Positions 5,205 to 9,647 of a DNA stretch of 64,000 bases are shown here, one piece after another (the stretch's first letter is position 1; every line of letters begins with the position of its first letter). A model generated the notes under the pieces. The model saw only the letters and a program-made list of their open reading frames with translations, had not been told where the DNA came from and did not search any database. Source of the DNA: an uncultured Clostridia bacterium. GTDB lineage: Bacteria > Bacillota > Clostridia > Christensenellales > UBA3700. The position numbers and the translations under genes were made by a program. The DNA lies in assembly GCA_947646415.1 (NCBI GenBank), contig CANSGN010000004.1:67743-131742 (forward strand), written 5' to 3'.

Positions 5205-6275
5205 TTACTCCTCTGTAACGTCAATTATACCGTCTTGTATAGCTTGAGATTGGGACTTAACATCTATTTTCCAACCGGTCAACTTTGCGGCAAGTCTGAC
5301 ATTTTGTCCGCCCTTACCGATAGCAAGTGACAACTTGTCATCAGGAACTATTACTCTTGCAGTTTTTTCATCCTCTTGCGTAATGCTCAAAACTTGTGCA
5401 GGGCTTAATGCTCTTGCAATGTACTCAAGCGGATTTTCACTCCAACGGATGATATCAACTTTTTCGCCTGAAAGCTCACGTACAACCTCGTTGATTCTTA
5501 CACCTTTTTGACCTATACAACCGCCAACAGCATCGATATTAGGATTGTCGCTATGTACAGCCATTTTTGTACGATTACCTGCATCTCTTACGATACCTTT
5601 GATAACGATATCGCCACTCTTAATTTCAGGTGCTTCCATCTCAAACAATCTTTTAACAAGACCTGCAACCGAACGAGATACGATAACTTGAGGACCTCTT
5701 GTATTAGTTCTTGTGTTTTTAACATAGACTTTAAGCATTTGACCCGGCATATATTTTTCGTTAGGAGACTTATCTGCACCAGACATTATAGCAGTCATTT
5801 GAGTGCTTAAAATTTCAAGATAAACAATATCTCCGTCAATTTTAATAACTTGTGCATTGGCAATTTCGCCCTCTCTGTCAGTCATTTCGGACATAACACG
5901 TTCTTTACGAGCGTCATTCAATCTTTGCATAACAACTTGTTTTGCAGTTTGGATAGCAATTCTTGAAAGTTCCTTAGGAGTAACATCCCAAAGTACCCAA
6001 TCGCCAACTTTATAAGACTTTTTAATTTCTTTTGCATCACTTAGCAAAATTTCCTTATCTGGCTCAGTAACTTCTTCCACAACGGTTTTGTATGCAAAAA
6101 CTTTAATTTCGCATCTGTTCTCATTCAATTTAACCGTCATAGGTCTTGCTTCGCCGGTTTCCCTTTTAAAAGCAGAAACCAAACCTGCTTCCAAAGCTTC
6201 GATAAATGTTGACTTTTCAATTCTTTTGTCCTTTTCCAATTCGTCCAATGCTGCAAAAAAATCTTTATTAACCAT
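5205..6275 (-). CDS. nusA: Transcription termination/antitermination factor NusA
   Basis: Binds RNA polymerase and nascent RNA, controls pausing, intrinsic termination and antitermination of rRNA operons. 356 residues, the length of the Bacillota form that lacks the C-terminal AR repeats. Order: N-terminal polymerase-binding domain (FAALDELEKDKRIEKSTFIE), S1 domain near residues 130-200, KH1 with VDAVGGCIGQKGVRI near 250, KH2 with LSLAIGKGGQNVRLAAKLTGW near 315-335 (both GXXG loops present). AGGAG ribosome site upstream. It follows rimP by 52 bases; the pair shares the promoter at 6857-6885. Confidence 0.96.
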   Translation of the reverse strand: MVNKDFFAALDELEKDKRIEKSTFIEALEAGLVSAFKRETGEARPMTVKLNENRCEIKVFAYKTVVEEVTEPDKEILLSDAKEIKKSYKVGDWVLWDVTPKELSRIAIQTAKQVVMQRLNDARKERVMSEMTDREGEIANAQVIKIDGDIVYLEILSTQMTAIMSGADKSPNEKYMPGQMLKVYVKNTRTNTRGPQVIVSRSVAGLVKRLFEMEAPEIKSGDIVIKGIVRDAGNRTKMAVHSDNPNIDAVGGCIGQKGVRINEVVRELSGEKVDIIRWSENPLEYIARALSPAQVLSITQEDEKTARVIVPDDKLSLAIGKGGQNVRLAAKLTGWKIDVKSQSQAIQDGIIDVTEE

Positions 6276-6327: not shown

Positions 6328-6792
6328 TTAAAATTTAATTTCGGGTTTTATAAGTGCAATATTTTTGATATCCAAATTTATTTCTTTCCCGTTATAATCC
6401 AAATCGATTATTCCCTTTTGCAAGTCATAACCTTTTAAAACTGCCACGAATTTTTTTAAATCCCCCACTTTTTCAAAAAGCGAAACATTTACCTCTTTGT
6501 CAAGATTTCTTTTATAATCTCTTTCCACCTTTAAAGGTCTGTCAATGCCGGGAGACGACACGTTTAAAATGTATTTTTCCCCACTTGTTGGGTCAATCTC
6601 GTCAAGGATAGGGTCAATCGTTCTATGAACAAGTTCACAACCGTTTAAATCCACGCCGCCGTCCTTATCGATAAATATTGTAAGATTCATATCTCCCAAA
6701 TATTTTTTGTAAGTGATTTCAATAATTTCATATCCTAATTCGGTTACTGCTTTTGTGATATGCTCTTCCACCATATCAATAACTTTTGACAT
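6328..6792 (-). CDS. rimP: Ribosome maturation factor RimP
   Basis: Assists 30S subunit assembly. I use ATG at 6790-6792 (MSKVIDMVEE), giving 154 residues, because GGAGGA sits 4 bases before it; a longer in-frame ORF reaches 6828 but would run through the leader hairpin. Family motifs: VTELGYEIIEI, then the YLGDMNLTIFIDKDGGVDLN strand-turn (split), DEIDPTSGEKYILNVSSPGIDRPL, which is the most conserved stretch. First gene of the rimP-nusA-rnpM-ylxQ-infB-rbfA-nrnA-truB operon. Its 5' leader carries a 10-bp hairpin at 6811-6833. Confidence 0.95.
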   Translation of the reverse strand: MSKVIDMVEEHITKAVTELGYEIIEITYKKYLGDMNLTIFIDKDGGVDLNGCELVHRTIDPILDEIDPTSGEKYILNVSSPGIDRPLKVERDYKRNLDKEVNVSLFEKVGDLKKFVAVLKGYDLQKGIIDLDYNGKEINLDIKNIALIKPEIKF

Positions 6793-6810
6793 AAATCCTC
6801 CGCAAACATT

Positions 6811-6833
6811 AAGGAGTGGTTCGACCACTCCTT
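6811..6833 (-). promoter_or_regulatory. Leader hairpin of the rimP-nusA operon
   Basis: A perfect 10-bp stem (AAGGAGTGGT / ACCACTCCTT) with a 3-base loop lies in the 5' untranslated region, between the promoter at 6857-6885 and the rimP ribosome site. No T-run follows on either strand, so it is not a standard terminator. One arm carries a second AAGGAG and the other arm an ACTCCTT that could pair with the real GGAGG site of rimP, so it may control translation; that is inference. Confidence 0.55.
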
Positions 6834-7042: not shown

Positions 7043-8563
7043 TTAAAATTTGCCTATTTTAACAAGTTCGATAAATAATTTTGCGGTTGCCAAGCAATCG
7101 TTTACCGCCCTGTGAGCCCCCTCCAAATTAATACCGAAATGCTCGCACAATGTGCCTAATTTGTAGTTTTTGCAAAATACGCTTTTTCTTGCCATTTCAA
7201 CAGTATCCATTGTATGGTTTGCAAATAGATATCCGTTAAGTTTTGCATACTTATCCACAAACTTTTTATCAAATGCTGCATTGTGAGCTACAAGTACGCT
7301 GTTTTCGCTAAACTTATAAAAATCTGCGATTACATCCGACATATCGGGTGCATTTTTAACATCGTTGTCAGTTATGGAAGTAAGCTCGGTAATTTTTTCG
7401 GGTATAGGAATATGCGGATTTACAAAAGTAGAAAAAGTTTCACTTATCACACCATCTACAACTTTTACAGCGCCAAGTTCGATTACTTCGTCCGAAACAT
7501 CCAAACCTGTCGTTTCAAAATCAAAAACAACAAAAGATTTTCCTACCAAATATGAAGGTACTGAACTGCTGTTTGTCCCTGCAGAAAACAAATCGTCTTG
7601 TATATAGTCAACATAACGCTCAGGGTGTACTGCCACATATTTCATAGGCGTAGTTTTTAAATCTTCTTTTAAAATTATAGATGACTTATCAATAGTGCAC
7701 TTGCTAATATCTTTACACAAAAGCACACTATCGTGTAAAAAACTATCCAAATCTTTGCGACCTGTAACAATTATCTCGTCGCCTATGCCGATTTTGTCAT
7801 AGTCGCCCTCTCCTTGATATTTTGCAAACGCCTTGCACACCAAACTACCTGTGCCGTCATTAATTTTAAACACATAATATGAGTTACCTGTCTTTTTACT
7901 CTCATTACGTTTAAATTCGATTACTTCCCCAGCATAAACAGCATTTTCTTCCGTATCTTTGCTGTCCACAATATACCTTGGTCGTATGGAAATTGCTTTG
8001 CCTACTATCTTTTCGTGATTTTCCGTCCTTATCCTACGGCTGATTATTGTTATGGAGTCCTCAGTCGCAAGGTCGGTTTCCAAATCCAAATCCTTTTTGC
8101 TATCGGATATTTCAAGCCTCAATTCGTTGCACATTTTATGCGACATGTAATTTGTCATACTTGCAAGCAAATCCATCGACTTAAAATAATCGTAAAACAT
8201 CGATTTCATATTTATTTTGACAAAGGCTATCCCATTGACTACTTTCGCATCAATTTCACTATTTTCAATCATAACGGTAGGATGTTTTTCCTTAAAATAA
8301 CCCAAAACATACCTTTTTACAACTTCATCATTTATGTAAGATTTTGAAAAAGTAATTTCCACCTGCATGGAATGAGGCAAAATATTGATTACTGCATCCT
8401 TAATGGCAAGTTTATCTTCCTCGGACAGACTATCCAAAATATCGTAAGGCAATAAAAAATTAACCGTAACTACAGGCGGCTTTTTTTGTATTTCTACATT
8501 ACTTACCCTTAAATAGTTAAATTTATCATTTGTCAATTTGTTTAATTCATCTAAAAATTCCAC
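7043..8563 (-). CDS. PolC-like N-terminal/OB/3'-5' exonuclease protein without polymerase domain
   Basis: 506 residues at the locus where full-length PolC (about 1400 residues) stands in related genomes (ispG-polC-rimP). Residues 1-190 resemble the PolC N-terminal domain; residues 205-290 form an OB fold (VYAGEVIEFKRNESKKTGNSYY split, then FKINDGTGSLVCKAF). Residues 340-506 are a DnaQ-type exonuclease: ExoI VVFDFETTGLD, ExoII LVAHNAAFDKKF, ExoIII AHRAVNDCLATA. The PHP segments and the whole polymerase palm/fingers are absent. The ORF closes cleanly with TAA and the 160 bases before the rimP promoter hold no remnant. GTG start at 8561-8563 with AGAGGT upstream. It may act as a free proofreading or repair exonuclease; whether another polC exists elsewhere is unknown. 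Confidence 0.85.
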   Translation of the reverse strand: MEFLDELNKLTNDKFNYLRVSNVEIQKKPPVVTVNFLLPYDILDSLSEEDKLAIKDAVINILPHSMQVEITFSKSYINDEVVKRYVLGYFKEKHPTVMIENSEIDAKVVNGIAFVKINMKSMFYDYFKSMDLLASMTNYMSHKMCNELRLEISDSKKDLDLETDLATEDSITIISRRIRTENHEKIVGKAISIRPRYIVDSKDTEENAVYAGEVIEFKRNESKKTGNSYYVFKINDGTGSLVCKAFAKYQGEGDYDKIGIGDEIIVTGRKDLDSFLHDSVLLCKDISKCTIDKSSIILKEDLKTTPMKYVAVHPERYVDYIQDDLFSAGTNSSSVPSYLVGKSFVVFDFETTGLDVSDEVIELGAVKVVDGVISETFSTFVNPHIPIPEKITELTSITDNDVKNAPDMSDVIADFYKFSENSVLVAHNAAFDKKFVDKYAKLNGYLFANHTMDTVEMARKSVFCKNYKLGTLCEHFGINLEGAHRAVNDCLATAKLFIELVKIGKF

Positions 8564-8624: not shown

Positions 8625-9647
8625 TTATAGCTTTGCAATCATATCCAAAAGCTCATCAATCAAAAACTCGTTACTTATTGTCTTTACTACTTGTCCATTT
8701 ATAAAAATTGCAGATTTATCTTTGCCGCCTGCAACGCCGAAATCACATTTTGCAGCTTCCCCCGGACCGTTTACCACACAGCCCATAACGGCAATTTTTG
8801 CTGACTTTTTGATATCTTTAGTAGCGTCCACAACCATTTTTGCAAGTCCTGCGACATCTATATTTGTCCTTGCACAAGTCGGACAACTTATAACTTCCAC
8901 ATGTGGGTCTCCAAGGTCCAAACTATTTAAAATTTCCTTTGCCACAAGCACTTCCTTATACGGCTCATCCGACAAACTTACCCTTATTGTATCCCCTATT
9001 CCGTCAAGCAAAAGACTGCCTATGCCGATTGCGGATTTTATCAATCCTTTTTCGTAAATACCTGCTTCCGTAACACCAACATGCAATGGATAATCACACG
9101 CATTTTTTAGCATCCTATATGCTTGCACGCTTGTTCTTACATCGCTTGATTTTACAGAGATAATCGTATTATAAAAATTGTATTTTTCCAAAAGAGCTAC
9201 ATGCCCCAAAGCACTTTTACACATTGCTTCTGCAAGCGGTAAATCTTTATATTGTTTTTCAAGCGACCCGCCATTTACACCTATGCGTATAGGGATATTT
9301 CGTTCATTTAAATAGTCTGCTACATACTGTACTTTTTTTTCATCCCCAATATTGCCTGGGTTTATACGTATTTTAGCAACTCCGCTATCGCAAGCGGCAA
9401 TCGCCAACCTGTAATCAAAATGTATATCCGCTACTACAGGAATATGCACCCCATTTATAATTTCCTTTAATGCTACTGCACTTTCCATATCGGGAACGGA
9501 TAATCTTACAATATCACATCCGTAACTTTCAAGCTGTAATATTTGTTTGATACTTCCATTTATATCTGTAGTTTTTGTGTTGCACATAGACTGAATGGCT
9601 ATTTTTTCGTCGTCGCCTATCGCAATATTTCCTATTTTAACTTTCAT
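8625..9647 (-). CDS. ispG: 4-hydroxy-3-methylbut-2-enyl diphosphate synthase IspG
   Basis: Iron-sulfur enzyme that converts methylerythritol 2,4-cyclodiphosphate to HMBPP in the MEP isoprenoid pathway. 340 residues. The TIM barrel begins with IGNIAIGDDEKIAIQSMCNT and the 4Fe-4S domain has CPTC near residue 258 and GCVVNGPGEA near 290, giving the three cluster cysteines and the glutamate ligand. Together with dxr in the same operon it shows that this organism makes isoprenoids by the MEP route and needs reducing power (ferredoxin or flavodoxin). The ribosome site is weak (AAGG, long spacing). Confidence 0.95.
   Translation of the reverse strand: MKVKIGNIAIGDDEKIAIQSMCNTKTTDINGSIKQILQLESYGCDIVRLSVPDMESAVALKEIINGVHIPVVADIHFDYRLAIAACDSGVAKIRINPGNIGDEKKVQYVADYLNERNIPIRIGVNGGSLEKQYKDLPLAEAMCKSALGHVALLEKYNFYNTIISVKSSDVRTSVQAYRMLKNACDYPLHVGVTEAGIYEKGLIKSAIGIGSLLLDGIGDTIRVSLSDEPYKEVLVAKEILNSLDLGDPHVEVISCPTCARTNIDVAGLAKMVVDATKDIKKSAKIAVMGCVVNGPGEAAKCDFGVAGGKDKSAIFINGQVVKTISNEFLIDELLDMIAKL

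Follow-up and report, generated by a model that had tools for sequence, protein, structure and literature searches.

How does a clostridial bacterium copy its chromosome when the gene at its polC position encodes a protein of only 506 residues? We addressed this question in a 64,000-nucleotide stretch of DNA from an uncultured Clostridia bacterium (hereafter, the window), for which the original prediction held that the polC ortholog between ispG and rimP had been cut down in place to an N-terminal domain (NTD), an OB domain and an exonuclease (Exo). Published surveys describe three replicase sets, namely DnaE1 alone, PolC with DnaE3, and PolC with DnaE1 (PMC3919608, PMC12926913). Within PolC, the portion consulted of the survey by Timinskas et al. 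describes cases without the exonuclease but none without the polymerase (PMC3919608), and a 2026 survey repeats the three sets, with truncated sequences discarded ahead of tree building (PMC12926913).

A shortened PolC at the polC locus

The predicted identity of the protein was borne out, with open reading frame, Pfam, NCBIfam, AlphaFold2 (AF2) and Foldseek evidence in agreement (Table 1). The local gene order is rseP-ispG-X-rimP-nusA, where X, the polC position, is the reduced protein, and this locus is conserved in both reduced-form and full-PolC families. The true start of rimP is probably an internal ATG near 6790.

Table 1. Positions in the window of the reduced polC, its parts and its neighbors
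Feature	Position	Strand	Evidence
Reduced PolC (NTD-OB-linker-Exo), 506 aa, GTG start	7043..8563	(-)	ORF, Pfam, NCBIfam, AF2, Foldseek
N-terminal domain, residues 1-155, PolC NTD homolog, two alpha/beta subdomains in model	8099..8563	(-)	AF2, hhalign
OB domain, residues 180-291	7691..8026	(-)	Pfam sub-threshold, AF2, Geobacillus PolC 3f2b match
Clamp-binding-like motif QDDLF, residues 322-326, in linker replacing PHP-N	7586..7600	(-)	Motif comparison
DEDDh exonuclease, residues 343-504	7052..7537	(-)	Pfam, alignment, profile and structure matches
ispG, upstream neighbor of reduced polC, synteny conserved	8625..9647	(-)	
rimP, downstream neighbor of reduced polC	6328..6828	(-)	
nusA, synteny conserved	5205..6275	(-)	

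The top NCBIfam match of the protein is PolC-type DNA polymerase III, and PolC 9qpc is the best match both in a PDB profile search (2e-58) and in a Foldseek search (E 4e-19) with the AF2 model, which drew on 24 relatives and has a mean pLDDT of 85. In the model, two alpha/beta subdomains at the N-terminus are followed by an OB barrel, then by a linker of low confidence and finally by the exonuclease. Pfam RNase_T matches residues 345-497 (3.8e-37), all five DEDDh residues are present (D348, E350, D432, H484 and D489), and the OB domain is marked by a below-threshold Pfam match at residues 211-269 and a profile match to residues 11-99 of Geobacillus PolC 3f2b. On the NTD, the Pfam NI and NII models gave no match; hhalign against the NTDs of full PolCs from sister families gave a probability of 97.9, and the VIA-align list was dominated by exonuclease matches and so provides no test of this domain.

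Alignment to full PolCs also upheld the predicted absence of the PHP and polymerase parts. The protein stops right behind the exonuclease. It shares with PolC the NTD, OB domain, DEDDh exonuclease, genomic locus and top sequence and structure matches but lacks the C-family polymerase core, the palm, fingers and tail, the (HhH)2 region and the C-terminal clamp-binding motif. The PHP domain that is split around the exonuclease in PolC is likewise absent, with the PHP-N segment, which occupies the OB-Exo interval of full PolC, replaced by a linker of ~55 residues; unlike PolC, the reduced protein carries a QxxLF-type motif in this interval.

DnaE1 is the only C-family polymerase

The expectation that the genome has no other polC, and that its replicase must therefore be of DnaE type, agreed with a genome search for C-family polymerases that found DnaE1 alone. 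The single DNA_pol3_alpha match lies in a 1189-aa clostridial DnaE1 that scores over the PRK06826 cut-off, has its catalytic aspartates and carries a clamp motif of its own (QITMF). This rules out, for the window's genome, both a PolC polymerase encoded as a separate gene elsewhere and DnaE3 as the surviving replicase. Reduced-form families have one DnaE1 per genome where assembled, and their sister families have DnaE1 together with a PolC of ~1400 aa.

The further claim, that the replicase depends on the reduced PolC as its proofreader, did not gain the same standing. Every PHP metal-ligand motif is kept in DnaE1, in reduced and full-PolC genomes alike (21 of 21 aligned), which weakens the need for a separate proofreader and rules out an inactivated DnaE1 PHP domain as the reason for keeping the exonuclease. 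Judging from these motifs, DnaE1 may proofread by its own PHP site.

Several other features of the polymerase complement were observed. DnaE1 of the reduced clade (L002:2882-6451 and relatives) has a variable, lineage-specific insertion near residue 471-478, inside the DNA_pol3_alpha domain, that is absent from full-PolC relatives. Genome G280 has two DnaE1 matches of equal score and length on two contigs (C15 and C16), either a duplicate or an assembly duplication, and second C-family polymerase matches occur in G273 (C10, 858-aa frame) and G102 (C105, 802-aa frame), both of which have a reduced PolC. DnaX length was no clear correlate, at 410-612 aa in reduced genomes vs 524-706 aa in full ones with one contig-end fragment omitted; the shortest complete frame examined (L142, 410 aa) belongs to G059, a 0.9-Mb genome of family f26.

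Distribution and a single origin

Relatives of the window's genome have the same form, 505-560 aa long, in the ispG-rimP interval, and in sister families of the same order the ~1400-aa PolC occupies this slot. The comparison of genomes bore out the reduced domain content across many families. Among 297 sampled genomes of the order, with PolC scored by a curated cut-off, 89 had a PolC over the cut-off, two (G076 and G086) had it in pieces, and two more (G067 and G294) fell below the cut-off though other members of their family have PolC. The ~204 genomes without full PolC come from 15 families whose sampled members all fell below the cut-off, and we read the reduced protein itself in ~50 of them. 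The predicted rarity of this arrangement in Bacillota stands at class level, with full PolC in 180 of the 195 genomes sampled, but in ~15 families of the order the reduced form is the rule.

Outside the order, no NTD-OB-Exo protein was found in the five below-cut-off genomes of the class sample that were examined (G337, G360, G381, G487 and G490). Two of these, G337 and G360 of family f60, have one DnaE1 and no PolC over the cut-off, possibly a case of complete PolC loss.

A DnaE1 tree of 33 reduced and 16 other genomes, from which G060 was left out as a wrong-frame row, separates the reduced group from the others by a branch with an SH-aLRT of 100, and in an IspG+NusA tree the reduced form is one clade (100/100). 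Because both trees give one reduced clade, the truncation happened once, and several independent truncations are ruled out. Omega was below 1 in reduced PolC wherever dS could be estimated, many comparisons being saturated, as is expected under purifying selection.

A clamp-binding-like motif in the new linker

At the place of PHP-N, the linkers of reduced proteins share the consensus YxxVxPxxYxxxxQxNLF, in which the window's protein has QDDLF for QxNLF. The strict form Q..[LIM]F occurs in 15 of 51 linkers, where shuffling would give 0.7 (at most 4 in 2000 shuffles). A relaxed form occurs in 32 of 51, where shuffling would give 5.9 (at most 14), although the 51 linkers are related sequences and the shuffle count is no strict probability. 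Strict matches are spread over about nine families, and the motif mostly lies 17-23 residues N-terminal of the exonuclease, in a linker that the model suggests is probably flexible; it is degenerate or absent in some genera of family f1 (L010, L021 and L033).

QxxLF is the general clamp-binding consensus and stands at the C-terminus of Bacillus subtilis PolC (PMC12309361). Most full PolCs of the order likewise have it at the extreme C-terminus, and this copy was lost in the reduced protein because the truncation took that part. From its sequence, we infer that the linker motif binds the sliding clamp. Segments that also resemble a clamp-binding motif (GQSLFEFP or GRNLFAFP type) are found just ahead of the exonuclease in standalone, short DnaQ-like proteins (L169, L170, L173 and L182).

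Possible roles of the reduced protein

We favor, at a probability of roughly 55%, the reading that the reduced protein derives from PolC, is tethered to the clamp and serves the DnaE1 replisome as an accessory, proofreading in trans where its active site is intact. The data indicate that a single truncation, in the common ancestor of ~15 families, deprived polC of its PHP, palm, fingers and C-terminal parts, and gene content indicates that the pre-existing clostridial DnaE1 became the sole replicative polymerase. The leftover NTD-OB-Exo protein would then have joined the DnaE1 replisome as a subunit of its own, with the linker motif standing in for the lost C-terminal one by a presumed contact with the clamp. 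Held there, the intact DEDDh site of most lineages, the window's included, would edit mismatched 3' ends left by DnaE1, while the NTD and OB domain may dock the protein to the replisome or to ssDNA, which could account for its retention in lineages with a dead nuclease. Such a model has precedent, since in B. subtilis the PolC exonuclease reportedly corrects errors of DnaE in trans (PMC11890065). Counting against it are the intact PHP site of DnaE1, by which a second proofreader is not required, the degenerate or absent linker motif in some f1 genera, and three lineages that have lost the catalytic residues, some of them with no clear standalone DnaQ.

These three lineages are f16, genus g70 of f29, and most of f19, in which the DEDDh residues are mostly or all replaced, by three separate changes on the DnaE1 tree; outside them, every other reduced protein read has an intact DEDDh set, except for one contig-end fragment. 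Retention of the whole protein after DEDDh loss therefore implies a role beyond catalysis, and like the intact DnaE1 PHP motifs these lineages speak against a proofreader on which the replicase depends. A recognizable NTD persists in the dead-exonuclease proteins, in many of which the linker also still has a motif of QxxLF-like or hexapeptide-like type (QMNFV, QSSLY, QIGFDF), and the dead exonuclease region is under constraint where dS is measurable. All of this would suit a conserved role that is non-catalytic, in which the NTD, OB domain and clamp motif serve DnaE1 as a replisome adaptor or an aid to processivity, with a secondary and repeatedly dispensable exonuclease, but the five catalytic residues are kept in most families and conservation is usually highest in the exonuclease domain, and we consider this alternative rather unlikely. 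Replacement by another DnaQ explains only part of the exonuclease deaths: some dead-exonuclease genomes do have a standalone DnaQ-like protein, but G194, G280 and G075 gave no RNase_T match at E 1e-5 and so have no clear one, and standalone DnaQs occur alongside live exonucleases too. In the window's genome, the reduced PolC is the only strong DEDDh match, and the other RNase_T match is marginal.

A repair or nucleic-acid-processing exonuclease, detached from the replication fork, seems more doubtful still. Versatility is typical of DEDDh exonucleases, DinG and ExoX lie near the protein's exonuclease in fold, and the PHP site of DnaE1 may be enough for proofreading, but retention of the PolC NTD and OB domain, together with the clamp-like motif and the conserved locus, is at odds with a detached enzyme. 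Finally, the length of only about one-third of full PolC might suggest that the gene is decaying into a pseudogene, or that an assembly error removed the 3' part. However, the frames are intact and under purifying selection, the architecture is common to some 15 families and arose once, long ago, and ~200 sampled genomes of the order lack full PolC, which together rule this out.

Comparison with known systems and significance

By analogy, the arrangement would resemble E. coli Pol III, in which DnaQ (epsilon) is likewise a separate DEDDh exonuclease beside DnaE1 with a clamp-binding-like motif. Unlike DnaQ, the reduced protein is PolC-derived, has an additional NTD and OB domain, and carries the clamp-like motif ahead of the exonuclease rather than C-terminal to it, and DnaE1 here retains an intact PHP site. 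One survey describes two further relatives: exo-less PolCs of some Clostridia and Negativicutes, which share domain loss around the PolC exonuclease in PolC+DnaE1 systems but show the opposite loss, having dropped the exonuclease and kept the polymerase; and Bacteroidetes systems, in which a DnaQ-type exonuclease is also paired with DnaE1 but is fused to the polymerase N-terminus and of unrelated origin (PMC3919608). In our class sample, the PolC of family f34 genomes (e.g. G451 and G480) is ~1270 aa long and its main profile match begins at position ~372, as it would if the inserted exonuclease had been lost.

A truncated PolC, or a DnaE1 with reduced-PolC arrangement, was not found in the literature searched, which comprised openly accessible papers and a minority of preprints. 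Whether the ~15 families represent a fourth bacterial replicase layout, with DnaE1 as the sole polymerase and a PolC-derived, clamp-tethered accessory that would serve as a trans proofreader in most lineages and a catalysis-free adaptor elsewhere, is in our judgment an evenly balanced proposition. The surveys raise the question of what leads Clostridia to maintain two replicases that both seem complete (PMC3919608, PMC12926913). In the ~15 families described here, a single event removed the polymerase of PolC but spared its front end and exonuclease, which suggests that the clostridial DnaE1 is able to copy a genome by itself, and this retention suggests that the non-polymerase part of PolC has a separable function. 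The three later exonuclease deaths separate catalysis from that other function, and so make it testable.
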